DNA of 64,000 bases, from contig CAIVGN010000098.1 in NCBI GenBank assembly GCA_903905455.1, forward strand, positions 1 to 64,000. The letters run 5' to 3'. This document shows, one piece after another, positions 3,462 through 55,145 of this stretch. The notes under the pieces are model-generated. The model worked only from the letters and a program-made list of their open reading frames with translations. It was not told the DNA's origin and did not search any database. Source of the DNA: an uncultured Archangium sp. (GTDB lineage: Bacteria > Myxococcota > Myxococcia > Myxococcales > Myxococcaceae). A program made the translations under genes and the position numbers. Within the stretch, counting starts at the first letter, position 1. Every line of letters begins with the position of its first letter.

Positions 3462-4784
3462 ATGCGCCTGACGCGGAGGCTGTTCTTCATCGGGTTCGGG
3501 CTGACGGCGCTGGTCGCCGTGGGCAGCTATTGGTGGCAGCTGCCCGGCCTCGCGGGGCCGAAGGGCATCGTCCCCTCGGAGCTCGGCCCGGGGATCTTGC
3601 ACCTGCTGTGCGCCGTGGCGTGCGGGGCCTCGGTGTTGCTGGTGCTGGGCCTCGCGCCCCGGGCGGCCTCGCTGGTGCTCTGGGCGAGCTGGCTTGCGCT
3701 GGCGCAGGCCGGCTCCCCCTTCCTCGCCTTCCAGTGGGACGTGCTGCTGGTGGAGACCGCCTTCTGCGCCGCGCTTTACGCACCGCCGGGGCTGCGACCG
3801 CGGCTGCGCACCGAGCCCGAGCCGCTGCCGGCGTTCCGCTTCGTGATGGCCCTGCTGGCCTGCAAGGTGACGCTCGAGTCGGGCATCGTGAAGCTCGCCA
3901 GCGGAGACCCGACCTGGCGCGATCTCACCGCGCTGACGTACCACTGGTGGTCGCAGCCGCTGCCCACCTGGACCAGCGTGTGGCTCCACGCCCTGCCGCT
4001 CCAGGCCCAGCAGGTGATGTGCGCGCTGATGTTCGTGCTGGAGCTCGCCGTGCCGCTGCTGATCTTCGGCCCGCGGTTGATGCGCCTGACGGGCGCGGTG
4101 GGCTTGATGGCCCTGCAGGCCGCGCTCTTCGCCGCGGGCAACTACAGCTTCTACAACGTGCTCACCTTCATGCTCGCCGTGCCGCTGCTCGACGACGGGC
4201 TGCTTCGCCGGGGGCCGGGGCCGGGGCGGGTGGTGCGCGCGCCTTCGACCTGGCTCGTGGCCGTGCTCTTCGGGGTGCTCAGCGTGGGCATGTTCCTGGG
4301 CCGTGGCTTCGACTCGCGCGTGCTGGCCTTCGTGCGGGGCTTTTCCACCATCAACCCGTACGGCGCCTTCGCGGTGATGACCCGCACCCGCGCGGAGATC
4401 GTGCTCGAGGGCAGCGTCGACGGCGTGACCTGGACCCCGTACGAGTTCCCCTTCAAGCCCGGCGCCCTCGACCGGCGGCCCGGCTTCATCGCCCCCTGGC
4501 AGCCGCGCCTCGACTGGCAGATGTGGTTCGCCGCCCTGGGCACCTGCGAGGACAACCCCTGGGTGCTCTCGCTGCAGCAGCGCCTGCTCGAAGACGCGGC
4601 GCCGGTGAAGGCGCTCTTCGAGACCGTGCCCGCGGCGACGCCGAGGGTGCTGCGCACGCGCGTCTTCGAGTACCGCTTCGCGCCCCTGCACGCGCCCGGC
4701 AGGTGGTGGACGCGCACCGAGACGGGCCCCTATTGCCCCGCGGTTTCGCTCGGGCCGAATGGGCAGTTGCAGCGCGCCTTCTGA
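3462..4784 (+). CDS. Lipase maturation factor-like polytopic membrane protein
   Basis: A 440-residue protein with about seven to eight hydrophobic segments in the first 290 residues, then a soluble C-terminal domain. The segment around YSFYNVLTFMLAVPLLDD, followed by NPYGAFAVMTRTR and WQPRLDWQMWFAALG, matches the lipase maturation factor (LMF1, DUF1222) architecture. Eukaryotic LMF1 helps fold secreted lipases in the ER; the bacterial role is not established. The ATG at 3462 begins a positively charged head (MRLTRRLFF) before membrane segment 1. An in-frame GTG about 12 bases earlier is possible. It ends 47 bases before the DprE1 homologue and may share its transcript. Confidence 0.85.
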   Translation: MRLTRRLFFIGFGLTALVAVGSYWWQLPGLAGPKGIVPSELGPGILHLLCAVACGASVLLVLGLAPRAASLVLWASWLALAQAGSPFLAFQWDVLLVETAFCAALYAPPGLRPRLRTEPEPLPAFRFVMALLACKVTLESGIVKLASGDPTWRDLTALTYHWWSQPLPTWTSVWLHALPLQAQQVMCALMFVLELAVPLLIFGPRLMRLTGAVGLMALQAALFAAGNYSFYNVLTFMLAVPLLDDGLLRRGPGPGRVVRAPSTWLVAVLFGVLSVGMFLGRGFDSRVLAFVRGFSTINPYGAFAVMTRTRAEIVLEGSVDGVTWTPYEFPFKPGALDRRPGFIAPWQPRLDWQMWFAALGTCEDNPWVLSLQQRLLEDAAPVKALFETVPAATPRVLRTRVFEYRFAPLHAPGRWWTRTETGPYCPAVSLGPNGQLQRAF

Positions 4785-51619: not shown

Positions 51620-52512
51620 TTGAACCCCGGGAGCAGGCCGGTGCCCAGCGAGGGCGTCAGCGGGCGGGCGCCACCGAAGGGCAGACCCATGGTCGGGCTC
51701 GAGAGCGCGTTCTGGGTGCCCTGCTGCAGCGGGGTGCCGTCGTCGTCGACGAAGCCCTGGCCGTTGGGGTTGGGCTTGGGCGAACGCGCCGGGGTGCCAT
51801 CGGGGCGCACCAGGCCGCCATTGCTGGCGTTGGGCTGACCTGCCGCCGCCGCCGCGCCGCCGTTTCGATCGCTGCCCGGGCCCATCGAGACCACGTGGGT
51901 CACGAGGTCGATGCTCTCGGTGATCTTCCCCTCTTTCCAGGTGACGGTGAGGTGTACCTCGCGCACCGACTTCTGGAGCTGGTCGACCATCTGGGTGAAC
52001 TGCTGCTGGGCCATGCCGGCCATGGGGCCCAGCGCGGCGAGGAACCCACCGCCCGCGGGTTGGGGGCCACCGGCCGCCGCCGGGTTCGCGCCCGACTTGC
52101 CGCCGGCGCCGCCGAACATGCCGCCCAGCAGGCCACCGCTGCCGTCCGCGCCGCCGCCCAGGGGAAGGTTGAAGAGCGCCCCGAAGAGCTGCTCGGGCGA
52201 GAGGCCGTTGGTCTTGGGAACGATGATCTTCGCGCGCCACTTGTACGAGGGCCAACCCTCGGCGCTGAAGTCACCGGCGTCTTCTTCGTCGTCGGAAGGG
52301 AGCGCCTCGTCGTAGAGCTTCTGCTCGAGGTCGGTCATCTTCGAGCGGGCCAGCAGCGTCGCGACGGTGAGCTTCTTCGCGTACACGTGCGAGTAGACGG
52401 CGCTGGCGTTGATGTCCAACACGGCCACCAGCGAGACGCCGAGGATGGCGAGCGCGATGACCACTTCGAGCAGGGTGAAGGCACGCGCATGGCGCAGGCG
52501 GGCGCGCTTCAT
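51616..52512 (-). CDS. gspI: Type II secretion minor pseudopilin GspI, enlarged by Gly/Pro-rich regions
   Basis: The N-terminus ARAFTLLEVVIALAILGV has the pseudopilin motif, but residue -1 is Ala instead of Gly. The protein is 298 residues; GspI is normally about 120-130. The extra length is a Gly/Ala/Pro-rich insert near residues 115-165 (LGGGADGSGGLLGG and on) and a disordered C-terminal tail from about 220. Between them are strands including VREVHLTVTWKEGK, as in normal GspI. It overlaps gspH by four bases (ATGA). It should form the pseudopilus tip with GspJ and GspK. Confidence 0.85.
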   Translation of the reverse strand: MKRARLRHARAFTLLEVVIALAILGVSLVAVLDINASAVYSHVYAKKLTVATLLARSKMTDLEQKLYDEALPSDDEEDAGDFSAEGWPSYKWRAKIIVPKTNGLSPEQLFGALFNLPLGGGADGSGGLLGGMFGGAGGKSGANPAAAGGPQPAGGGFLAALGPMAGMAQQQFTQMVDQLQKSVREVHLTVTWKEGKITESIDLVTHVVSMGPGSDRNGGAAAAAGQPNASNGGLVRPDGTPARSPKPNPNGQGFVDDDGTPLQQGTQNALSSPTMGLPFGGARPLTPSLGTGLLPGFK

Positions 52513-53198
52513 GACCTGGGCACCACGAGGTCTTCGTTGTGGATCTTCGTCTTGCCGGTGAGCGGCGAGATGGTGAGGGTCCACGCGTTGTCGCCCTGGC
52601 GCACCCAGACCTGCGCGCGCTCGGTGTAGCCCTGGGGGAAGAAGTAGAGGTACGCCTCGCCCGACTTGGCCGGCTCGCGCTGCTTGGCGGTCCACACCTC
52701 GATCTTCACGCCGGCGGGCAGGGTGCGCTCGACCACGTCTTCGCTCGAGAAGTCGGAGAACTTGGCGTCCTTCTCCACGCGCTCCTTCTCTTCGTCCTGC
52801 AGTTGCTGGAGCGTGGGCGCGTCGTCGCTGTCCATGCGGCGGAAGCGGTCGTCTTCCTTCACCTTGTCCTTGCCGGGGCGGCGCGCGTTCTTGAGCTCCT
52901 CGTCGCGCTTGGCCGAGGTGGTGGCGCCGGCCCGGGCGCACTCGGCCCGCCAGGTGACGGGCTTGTCTTCTTCGCGCGCCTGGGGGAGCGAGAACACGAG
53001 GCGGCAGGTGCGGCCCGAGAGCGCCGCGGTGTCGTAGAGCGCGCGAATGGTGCCGGCGAGCTCGGTGGAGGCTTCCTTCGCCTTGGCGCCGGTCAGCGCC
53101 CCGACGCCGAGGACCACGGCGGCGAAGAGCAACACCACGATGCCCAGGGTGACGGTGAGCTCGATGAGGGTCAGGCCTCGGCGGGAAGAGCGCCTCAT
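52509..53198 (-). CDS. gspH: Type II secretion minor pseudopilin GspH
   Basis: A 229-residue pseudopilin with a prepilin motif RRGLTLIELTVTLGIVVLLF (Gly at -1, Glu at +5). A charged segment, residues about 75-165 (rich in Lys, Asp, Glu), replaces what is usually a short loop. A beta-sheet C-terminus follows (YLYFFPQGYTERAQVWV). GspH sits at the base of the tip complex. The start is the ATG at 53198, which overlaps the stop of the 38-residue miniprotein; an upstream in-frame extension would absorb that miniprotein and is unlikely. Confidence 0.86.
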   Translation of the reverse strand: MRRSSRRGLTLIELTVTLGIVVLLFAAVVLGVGALTGAKAKEASTELAGTIRALYDTAALSGRTCRLVFSLPQAREEDKPVTWRAECARAGATTSAKRDEELKNARRPGKDKVKEDDRFRRMDSDDAPTLQQLQDEEKERVEKDAKFSDFSSEDVVERTLPAGVKIEVWTAKQREPAKSGEAYLYFFPQGYTERAQVWVRQGDNAWTLTISPLTGKTKIHNEDLVVPRS

Positions 53199-53311
53199 CC
53201 GAAGACCCTCCGCAGCACGTCGACGACGAGCCACACGCCCGCGCTGGCGCCGAGCGCCACCACGATCGTCACCGGGGAGAGCCCGGCCTGCTTGTCGTCG
53301 GTCTTCTTCAT
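53195..53311 (-). CDS. 38-residue single-pass membrane miniprotein in the gsp operon (between gspG and gspH)
   Basis: A complete small frame read by hand from an ATG at 53311 to TGA at 53195-53197. It encodes MKKTDDKQAGLSP then a hydrophobic helix of about 20 residues (13-32) and a basic tail (LRRVFG), so the C-terminus should be cytoplasmic or the protein a signal-anchor. Its stop overlaps the gspH ATG (ATGA), a strong sign that it is translated with the operon. I do not recognise a family. It could be a minor assembly factor of the secretion system (inference). Confidence 0.65.
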   Translation of the reverse strand: MKKTDDKQAGLSPVTIVVALGASAGVWLVVDVLRRVFG

Positions 53312-53327
53312 GGGCGCGGGGGCGGGG

Positions 53328-53747
53328 TTACTTCTTGCCCGAGTCTTTCGACGAGATGTCGGCGTCGGAGTCGGCGCCGCCGGGCGTGCCGTCCTTGCCG
53401 TAGGACATGATCACCGGCTTGCCGCCCTCGTTCAGGTAGATGTACTCGTGGTCCCACGGGTCCACGGGCATCTTCTCGAGGATCTGCGCGTCGACGACCG
53501 CCTTCAGGCCACCGCCGGTGTCGGGGTAGTTGCCCTTCTTGGCGTAGTAGGTCTTCAGCGCGTTGCCGATGTTGGCGATGTCCAGGCGCGCGCGGTCGAC
53601 CTTGGCCTGGTCGAGCTGCGGGATGACGGCGATGCCGACCGCGGCCATCAGCAGCGAGAGAATGGTGATGACGACGATGATCTCGATGAGGGTCATGCCG
53701 CGGGCACTGCGACGGCGGCGGGCGAGCTGGCGGGTGAGGGTCGACAT
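53328..53747 (-). CDS. gspG: Type II secretion major pseudopilin GspG
   Basis: A 139-residue major pseudopilin. The prepilin motif is ARGMTLIEIIVVITILSLL: Gly at -1, Met at +1, Glu at +5. The C-terminal part has the GspG-specific features YYAKKGNYPDTGGGL, VDPWDHEYIY and SYGKDGTPGG, the calcium-binding loop region. It polymerises into the pseudopilus that acts as the secretion piston. The length is normal. Two membrane miniproteins flank it in the operon. Confidence 0.96.
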   Translation of the reverse strand: MSTLTRQLARRRRSARGMTLIEIIVVITILSLLMAAVGIAVIPQLDQAKVDRARLDIANIGNALKTYYAKKGNYPDTGGGLKAVVDAQILEKMPVDPWDHEYIYLNEGGKPVIMSYGKDGTPGGADSDADISSKDSGKK

Positions 53748-53760
53748 GAGGGCTTTCCTT

Positions 53761-53874
53761 TCAGACGTAGAGAACGAGGGCCGCGCCGACGAGCGAGGCG
53801 GCGATGGCGAGCAGGGTGGCGGTGAGAACGCGCTGAATGAGCAGGTCTTTCTTCTGAACGTCCGAGGCGTGCAT
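53761..53874 (-). CDS. 37-residue single-pass membrane miniprotein in the gsp operon (between gspF and gspG)
   Basis: A complete small frame read by hand: ATG at 53874 to TGA at 53761-53763. The product begins MHASDVQKKDLLIQRVL (cytoplasmic, basic) and continues as a hydrophobic helix to the C-terminus (about residues 15-37). An AGGACTTCC stretch lies just before the ATG, and it sits 8 bases after gspF and 13 bases before gspG. I do not recognise a family. Together with the 38-residue gene after gspG, it suggests small inner-membrane accessories of this T2SS. Confidence 0.6.
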   Translation of the reverse strand: MHASDVQKKDLLIQRVLTATLLAIAASLVGAALVLYV

Positions 53875-53882
53875 GGAAGTCC

Positions 53883-55145
53883 TCACCGAACCATCGAGTT
53901 CATCTGCAGAATTGGCATCAGGATCGAGAACGCGACGAAGGCGATCACGGCGCCCATCAAGACGATCATCATCGGCTCGAGCAGCGCGGTGAGCGCGCCG
54001 ATGCGCACGTTGACGCTCGACTCGTAGCTGTCCGCGACGTTGAGCAGCATGTCTTCGAGCTGGCCCGAGCGCTCGCCGATGCCGACCATGTGGTAGACGA
54101 GCGGGGGAAATTCGCCCGACTTCTTGAGCGGCGCGGCGATGCTCTCGCCCTCGCGAATGGCATCACGCGCAGTGTCGATCACCGCCGACATGGTGCTGTT
54201 GGTGATCACGTTCTTCACGATGTCGAGCGCGTTGAGCAGTGGCACGCCCGACTTGAGCAGCGTGGCCAGGGTGCGCGAGAAGCGCGCCACCGAGAGCTGG
54301 CGCACCAGCGGCCCGAACACGGGGATCTTGAGCACGATGCGGTCCCACACCGGCTTGCCCGACTCCGACCCGGTCCACCGGTACAGGAGGATCGCGCCGC
54401 CGATGAACCCCGGCACCACGATGAACCAGTAGTTCTGCAGGAAGTTCGAGGCCCAGATGAGCAGCTTCGTGGTCCACGGCAGGTTGACCTTCATGTCGTC
54501 GAAGATCTTGGTGACCTTGGGCACCACGACGGTCATCAGCATGATCAGCACGCCGCCGCCGATGACGAACATGATCGCCGGGTAGATCATCGTGCCGACG
54601 ATCTTCTGCTTGAGCCGCGCCTGGCCCTCGGTGAACTCGGCGAGCCGCAGCAGCACCGCGTCCAGCGCGCCCGAGCTCTCACCGGCGCGGATCATGTTCA
54701 CGAACAGCGGGCCGAAGACCTTCACGTGGTGCTGGAGCGCGTCGCCCAGCGAGCTGCCCTCGTTCACCCGCTGCTTCACGTCGGAGAGGATGCGCTTGAG
54801 CTTCTCCTTCTCCACCTGGTCCACCATGGCGCTGAGCGCCTCGACCAGGGAGACGCCGGCCTTGAGCAGGGTGGCCAGCTGGCGCGTCATCACCGCGATG
54901 TCGTCGGTGTCCACCGAGCCGCCGCCGAGCTTGCGCAGGTTGATCTCGGTGTTGCCCAGCGAGGTGGCGCCCGCCTTGCCCTTGACGTTGCTCTTGAGGC
55001 TGCCCTCGGCCTGGCCCACCACGTCGGTGAGGAAGATGCCTTCCTTGCGCAGCACCGCGCGCAGGGTCTTCGGGCTGTCGGCCTCCTTGAGGCCGTCCAC
55101 GTTCTTCCCGGCGGCGTTGAGCGCCTTGTATTCGAAGACAGGCAT
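53883..55145 (-). CDS. gspF: Type II secretion inner-membrane platform protein GspF
   Basis: A 420-residue polytopic protein. An N-terminal region (1-75, MPVFEYKALNAAGK) leads into two T2SSF domains, about 85-205 and 290-410, with three membrane segments (near 180-200, 230-255 and 390-412). Motifs include TRQLATLLKAGVSLVEAL, ARFSRTLATLLKSGVPLLNAL and GERSGQLEDML. GspF anchors the secretion motor and contacts GspE and GspL. It follows gspE after 6 bases. Confidence 0.96.
   Translation of the reverse strand: MPVFEYKALNAAGKNVDGLKEADSPKTLRAVLRKEGIFLTDVVGQAEGSLKSNVKGKAGATSLGNTEINLRKLGGGSVDTDDIAVMTRQLATLLKAGVSLVEALSAMVDQVEKEKLKRILSDVKQRVNEGSSLGDALQHHVKVFGPLFVNMIRAGESSGALDAVLLRLAEFTEGQARLKQKIVGTMIYPAIMFVIGGGVLIMLMTVVVPKVTKIFDDMKVNLPWTTKLLIWASNFLQNYWFIVVPGFIGGAILLYRWTGSESGKPVWDRIVLKIPVFGPLVRQLSVARFSRTLATLLKSGVPLLNALDIVKNVITNSTMSAVIDTARDAIREGESIAAPLKKSGEFPPLVYHMVGIGERSGQLEDMLLNVADSYESSVNVRIGALTALLEPMMIVLMGAVIAFVAFSILMPILQMNSMVR

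Follow-up and report, generated by a model that had tools for sequence, protein, structure and literature searches.

In the T2SS operon of an uncultured Archangium sp. (Myxococcaceae), gspG is flanked by two short open reading frames, and this locus raises the question of whether such frames encode new small inner-membrane parts of the secretion system. A sequence-only reading of the window, i.e., the whole stretch of 64,000 nucleotides that was analyzed, had described frames of 37 and 38 codons on the gsp strand, either side of gspG, and had proposed such a role for them.

Architecture of the locus

Both frames, hereafter m1 and m2, were recovered as ORFs, and the features of the operon on which the analysis draws are as follows:

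53761..53874, minus strand: m1, gene of a predicted 37-aa single-pass protein in the gspF-gspG slot, ATG ORF (MHASDVQKKDLLIQRVLTATLLAIAASLVGAALVLYV)
53195..53311, minus strand: m2, gene of a predicted 38-aa single-pass protein in the gspG-gspH slot, ATG ORF (MKKTDDKQAGLSPVTIVVALGASAGVWLVVDVLRRVFG)
53883..55145, minus strand: gspF, inner-membrane platform protein (PF00482, E 1e-65)
53328..53747, minus strand: gspG, major pseudopilin (TIGR01710 above its cut-off; PF08334)
52509..53198, minus strand: gspH-like minor pseudopilin, by position and the N-terminal prepilin motif RGLTLIE in the translation (no match in a Pfam scan)
60303-59356, minus strand: gspC of the T2SS operon
49490-47913, minus strand: PilM-like gspL of the T2SS operon

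The order on the minus strand is gspC, gspD, gspE, gspF, m1, gspG, m2, gspH and gspI, followed by further pseudopilins and then by the PilM-like gspL and likely gspM/N. m1 has an alternative in-frame GTG start at 53886, sharing GTGA with the gspF stop, from which the product would be 41 aa long. The stop of m2 and the start of gspH overlap in ATGA, exactly as had been described, and the last m2 codons contain a GGAGGG ribosome site for gspH. Start/stop overlaps with gspF and gspH recur in many relatives.

One membrane helix is predicted in each product by hydropathy and alignments, in agreement with the sequence-only reading. The 19-residue Kyte-Doolittle mean reaches 2.33 in m1 and 2.12 in m2, and no other of the window's 137 ORFs of 30-60 aa, counted over both strands, reaches 1.9. 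The AF2 model of m1 is likewise a single helix (residues 4-36, pLDDT 86). Both products are thus small bitopic proteins by size, with one helix, fewer than about 60 aa and little else; some m1-slot proteins of relatives are as long as 86-87 aa. The basic head that had been ascribed to each frame proved weak, as K/R residues are mixed with D in both heads and the net charge is about +1. The frames had also been considered too short for routine gene callers, which is too strong a statement, given that the usual minimum is 90 nt and the frames span 114-117 nt.

Coding evidence

Close relatives carry both frames uninterrupted in the corresponding positions, with identities of 49-70% for m1 and 66-84% for m2, and frame, position and membrane helix are kept without stops. 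The frames thus withstood the refuting condition named in the sequence-only reading, namely stop codons or a lack of conservation in relatives. Because the strong G+C codon bias affects plain pN/pS of m1 and m2, a substitution-placement test was employed, in which the observed nucleotide substitutions of related pairs were re-placed randomly on bases of the same kind. Over 14 pairs of m1, 188 amino-acid changes were counted where 264.6 (sd 7.1) were expected (z -10.8), and over eight pairs of m2, 103 where 150.2 (sd 5.4) were expected (z -8.8), both z values being somewhat optimistic since a few pairs have one sequence in common. Depending on the pair, 5-57% of the simulated copies gained stops, and their mean hydropathy dropped in all pairs but one. 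There is thus strong evidence that m1 and m2 are genuine protein-coding genes under purifying selection; they are probably translated in vivo and inserted into the membrane.

Distribution of m1

The gaps on either side of gspG were inspected in GspG-anchored loci drawn from 96 Myxococcaceae genomes, from 195 genomes across the phylum and from GTDB contigs. The m1 profile gave one strong match, in the gspF-gspG slot, in 92 of the 96 Myxococcaceae genomes, all remaining matches being weak (E above 1e-4). As for the other genomes, the m1 ORF is there in G082 but has no listed profile match, m1 is lost from G012, and G047 and G048 have neither a detected gspG nor a credible m1. Identity is only 24-46% across much of the family. 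Beyond it, single-helix ORFs of ~43-87 aa occupy the same slot in families f6, f7, f8, f9 and f10; profile support is good to marginal in f6, f7 and f8, while those of f9 and f10 are grouped with m1 by position and helix only. No m1 was found in the gspF-gspG gaps of family f3 (Anaeromyxobacter type), family f2 and other classes, though a T2SS is present there; in these, gspF runs directly up to or into gspG, or the two are separated by another gene, lspA for example. On the GspF+GspG tree, m1 is confined to neighbouring lineages that form a compact group, and one later loss is clear (L011). The two miniproteins differ in kind: m1 is old and nearly universal in Myxococcaceae, and m2 is patchy.

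Scanned against Pfam and NCBIfam, m1 and m2 gave no meaningful match, the m1 profile yielded chance matches only against PDB sequences, no credible paralogues of the miniproteins were found elsewhere in the window's genome, and profile-profile comparison revealed no relation between m1 and m2.

The same slot holds other genes elsewhere. A gene resembling lspA (lipoprotein signal peptidase, NPHGAFGLF motif) is present in family f11 (loci L102, L103, L109, L149, L154, L156, L157, L173 and L206). In one genus of family f2 (L113/L195) the slot carries a membrane protein of 215 aa whose C-terminal stretch (DPWGHDYF..GSLGADGRLGGDDD) is GspG-like, apparently an independent GspG-like protein.

Replacement and loss of m2

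The m2 profile matched 18 Myxococcaceae genomes, every match lying at the gspG-gspH slot, and on the GspF+GspG tree m2 falls in two adjacent clades. In most of Myxococcaceae its place is taken by a membrane-anchored GspG-like protein without a prepilin site, which in the rest of one m2 clade (Myxococcus, Corallococcus, Archangium, Hyalangium, Pyxidicoccus) is 143-167 aa long:

L047:5443-5925: GspG-like protein without prepilin motif in the gspG-gspH slot, with equivalents in L048-L079 and L092

This protein contains the GspG domain (PF08334, E 2.6e-13), and its AF2 model (pLDDT 79) matched EpsG (4lw9, E 4e-6) in Foldseek. The prepilin motif was present in none of the 47 copies examined. We read it as a GspG duplicate because it is collinear by eye with GspG; it looks to be no longer processable and should not polymerise. 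Profile-profile comparison of m2 with this protein gave no support for descent in either direction. At locus L080, a 94-codon frame after gspG has a GspG-like domain without a strong membrane helix and is possibly a decaying duplicate.

A close relative in the window's own genus (L011/L039) has a clean deletion of m1 and, in the m2 slot, a 37-codon frame devoid of a helix. Despite the loss of both miniproteins, gspF, gspG, gspH and gspI are still conserved in it, so neither miniprotein is essential everywhere and both are accessory. That both are lost together is only a hint that m1 and m2 act together, being a single case from one MAG. A T2SS core component would be present wherever the system is, and m1 and m2 are not, given their absence from the Anaeromyxobacter-type family, f2, other classes and L011/L039.

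Two of the records (L069, L081) are titled Comamonas sp. KCTC 72670. L069 falls inside Myxococcus on the GspF+GspG tree and L081 comes from the same record set, so this record looks mislabelled.

Locus tags and regulation in Myxococcus xanthus

The M. xanthus tags of GspD and GspK are MXAN2514 and MXAN2505, respectively (PMC3222651), and the gene order from D to K in strain AM003 (L079) requires exactly ten tags. These fit only if m1 is tagged, which would make its orthologue MXAN_2511, the sequence being that of AM003 and not of DK1622. The possibility that m1 is wholly unannotated was thus dropped: the description of the frames as unannotated was partly right but, by this locus-tag arithmetic, probably fails for m1 outside the present genome, and the apparent tag also counters the gene-caller claim.

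According to a study of Nla28, MXAN2511 is the first gene of a T2SS operon of 10 genes that has three half-sites and a sigma54 element (PMC9765219). All four motifs are found in L079 with the spacing given in that study; they lie at 4541-4670, within the 3' end of gspF. Since the next ORF on the motif strand is m1 (ATG codons at 4739/4742), a starvation-induced transcript that covers the second half of the operon plausibly has m1 as its first cistron. An insertion in MXAN2510 is reported to cause defective sporulation and swarming and, if the tags are right, would hit gspG and not a miniprotein. The window itself keeps a GG-N10-GC match at about 53955-53940.

Alternative explanations

The frames could be mainly translational couplers or leaders that bring ribosomes to gspG and gspH, the peptide itself being unimportant. 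This would suit the repeated stop/start overlaps among relatives, the position of the gspH ribosome site in the last codons of m2, and the helix-less frame of L011, which is still coupled to gspH. Yet a coupler requires no particular amino acids, whereas the helix and residues of both peptides are kept against the neutral expectation, and m1 frequently lies 60-130 nt from gspG, too far for simple coupling; we therefore regard coupling as an unlikely main function. It is also rather unlikely, if a little easier to entertain, that m1 and m2 are real membrane proteins merely riding in the operon and acting elsewhere, for example as small membrane proteins of the stress type. Many small membrane proteins have other roles and the link to the T2SS rests on synteny, but m1 holds the gspF-gspG slot family-wide and has no strong match elsewhere in those genomes.

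A further possibility is that m2 is a mini-pseudopilin that has degenerated (leader, G|L..P.., one helix), or else the remnant of a GspG-like paralogue that shrank. The gene is located between two pseudopilin genes, a GspG-like paralogue occupies the same slot in sister genera, and a near-invariant G and an invariant L head the helix. In addition, K/R counts favour N-in topology in 12 of the 18 m2 sequences. Against this, m2 has GLSP..I in place of the prepilin peptidase motif G|(F/L)TLIE, with an invariant Pro at +3 and no Glu5. No prepilin-motif match was obtained at E up to 10 with Pfam N_methyl (window m2) or NCBIfam TIGR02532 (16 members), and m2 has no profile similarity to the GspG-like paralogue. 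A pseudopilin ancestry of m2 thus appears very unlikely.

Proposed role

Our preferred reading, to which we assign a probability of about 0.6, is that m1 and m2 are genuine single-pass inner-membrane microproteins and that m1 is an accessory subunit of the T2SS inner-membrane platform. Operon position by itself is no proof of a T2SS role; it is synteny that suggests one here, with stable linkage to the genes of a single large complex and strong matches solely at gspF-gspG for m1 (92/96) and solely at gspG-gspH for m2 (18). The reading also draws on purifying selection, the two frames being the window's only strongly hydrophobic short ORFs, the overlaps with gspF and gspH, the AF2 helix of m1, its neighbouring lineages on the tree, the missing m1 in both genomes where gspG went undetected, and the place of the M. 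xanthus orthologue directly downstream of the Nla28/sigma54 motifs. Against it stand the low conservation of m1 outside the window's genus, the loss in L011/L039 and the T2SSs that lack m1. The original proposal of new small inner-membrane parts is partly supported: it agrees with the strict synteny, and both are accessory, having been lost in a close relative.

According to the proposed mechanism, m1 and m2 would be translated within the gsp operon as single-pass inner-membrane microproteins, m1 serving as a small accessory subunit of the platform. K/R residues are in excess on the N-side of the m1 helix in 65 of 76 distinct sequences, so N-in is its most likely topology. At the edge of the membrane most members carry a D/E-R-W-(I/L)-Q-R-like motif, with an Ala/Leu/Gly helix after it; in the window's genus the chain stops as soon as the helix does. 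The short head with this motif would thus be cytoplasmic. As nothing in m1 hints at catalysis or substrate binding, packing on a larger membrane partner is the natural reading. The helix would most likely pack against GspF, the first candidate because it is encoded just before m1, or against the GspC/L/M cluster, and may tune the assembly or stability of its partner, as CydX, AcrZ and KdpF do for their own complexes. PulF of Klebsiella is a trimer with a peripheral TMS2 (PMC10790770), and by analogy such an arrangement would leave space for a small subunit. The second, unrelated bitopic protein, m2, may have a lineage-restricted job near the pseudopilins. Its topology is less clear than that of m1: by K/R count, 12 of the 18 sequences are N-in, four are ties and two are C-in, and an Arg/Lys pair follows the helix.

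A bolder extension, which we find possible but doubtful, is that most Myxococcia T2SSs, except those of the Anaeromyxobacter type and of a second family, have m1 as a dedicated one-helix subunit of the GspF platform. The gspG-gspH slot would then evolve by exchange of membrane anchors, with the 38-aa helix of m2 in one lineage and a non-polymerisable GspG-like membrane protein in the other, and each would act on the assembly of the pseudopilus.

Comparison with known systems

To our knowledge, all known T2SS inner-membrane parts have sizeable domains, and a literature search found no report of small T2SS proteins. If true, T2SS components would gain a new class, a conserved microprotein subunit that might regulate the GspF platform. 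Proteins of this size are easily omitted from the parts lists of secretion systems, and M. xanthus is tractable. The bacteria concerned are predators that use their T2SS to deliver MYXO-CTERM proteins to the cell surface (PMC11980579).

Within the same operon, GspC, GspL, GspM and GspN are also single-pass inner-membrane products, and the window has gspC, gspL and likely gspM/N beside m1 and m2; these proteins have cytoplasmic or periplasmic domains, whereas hardly any part of m1 or m2 lies outside the membrane. The GspG-like protein of Myxococcus, Corallococcus and Archangium shares with m2 the operon slot and one N-terminal membrane helix, but has 143-167 aa, a GspG fold and no detectable homology to it. 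CydX (37 aa, small subunit of cytochrome bd oxidase), AcrZ and KdpF are closer in kind: they are single-helix bitopic proteins whose genes lie within or next to the operon for a large membrane complex, with low sequence conservation, fixed synteny and frequent lack of annotation (PMC4325964; AcrZ, PMC7267776). No sequence relation to them was found in the Pfam/NCBIfam scans or with the m1 profile against PDB, and their partners and phenotypes are demonstrated, while m1 and m2 are known from sequence. We thus believe that m1 and m2 are probably accessory, lineage-specific proteins and represent a new small-subunit variant of a well-known machine.
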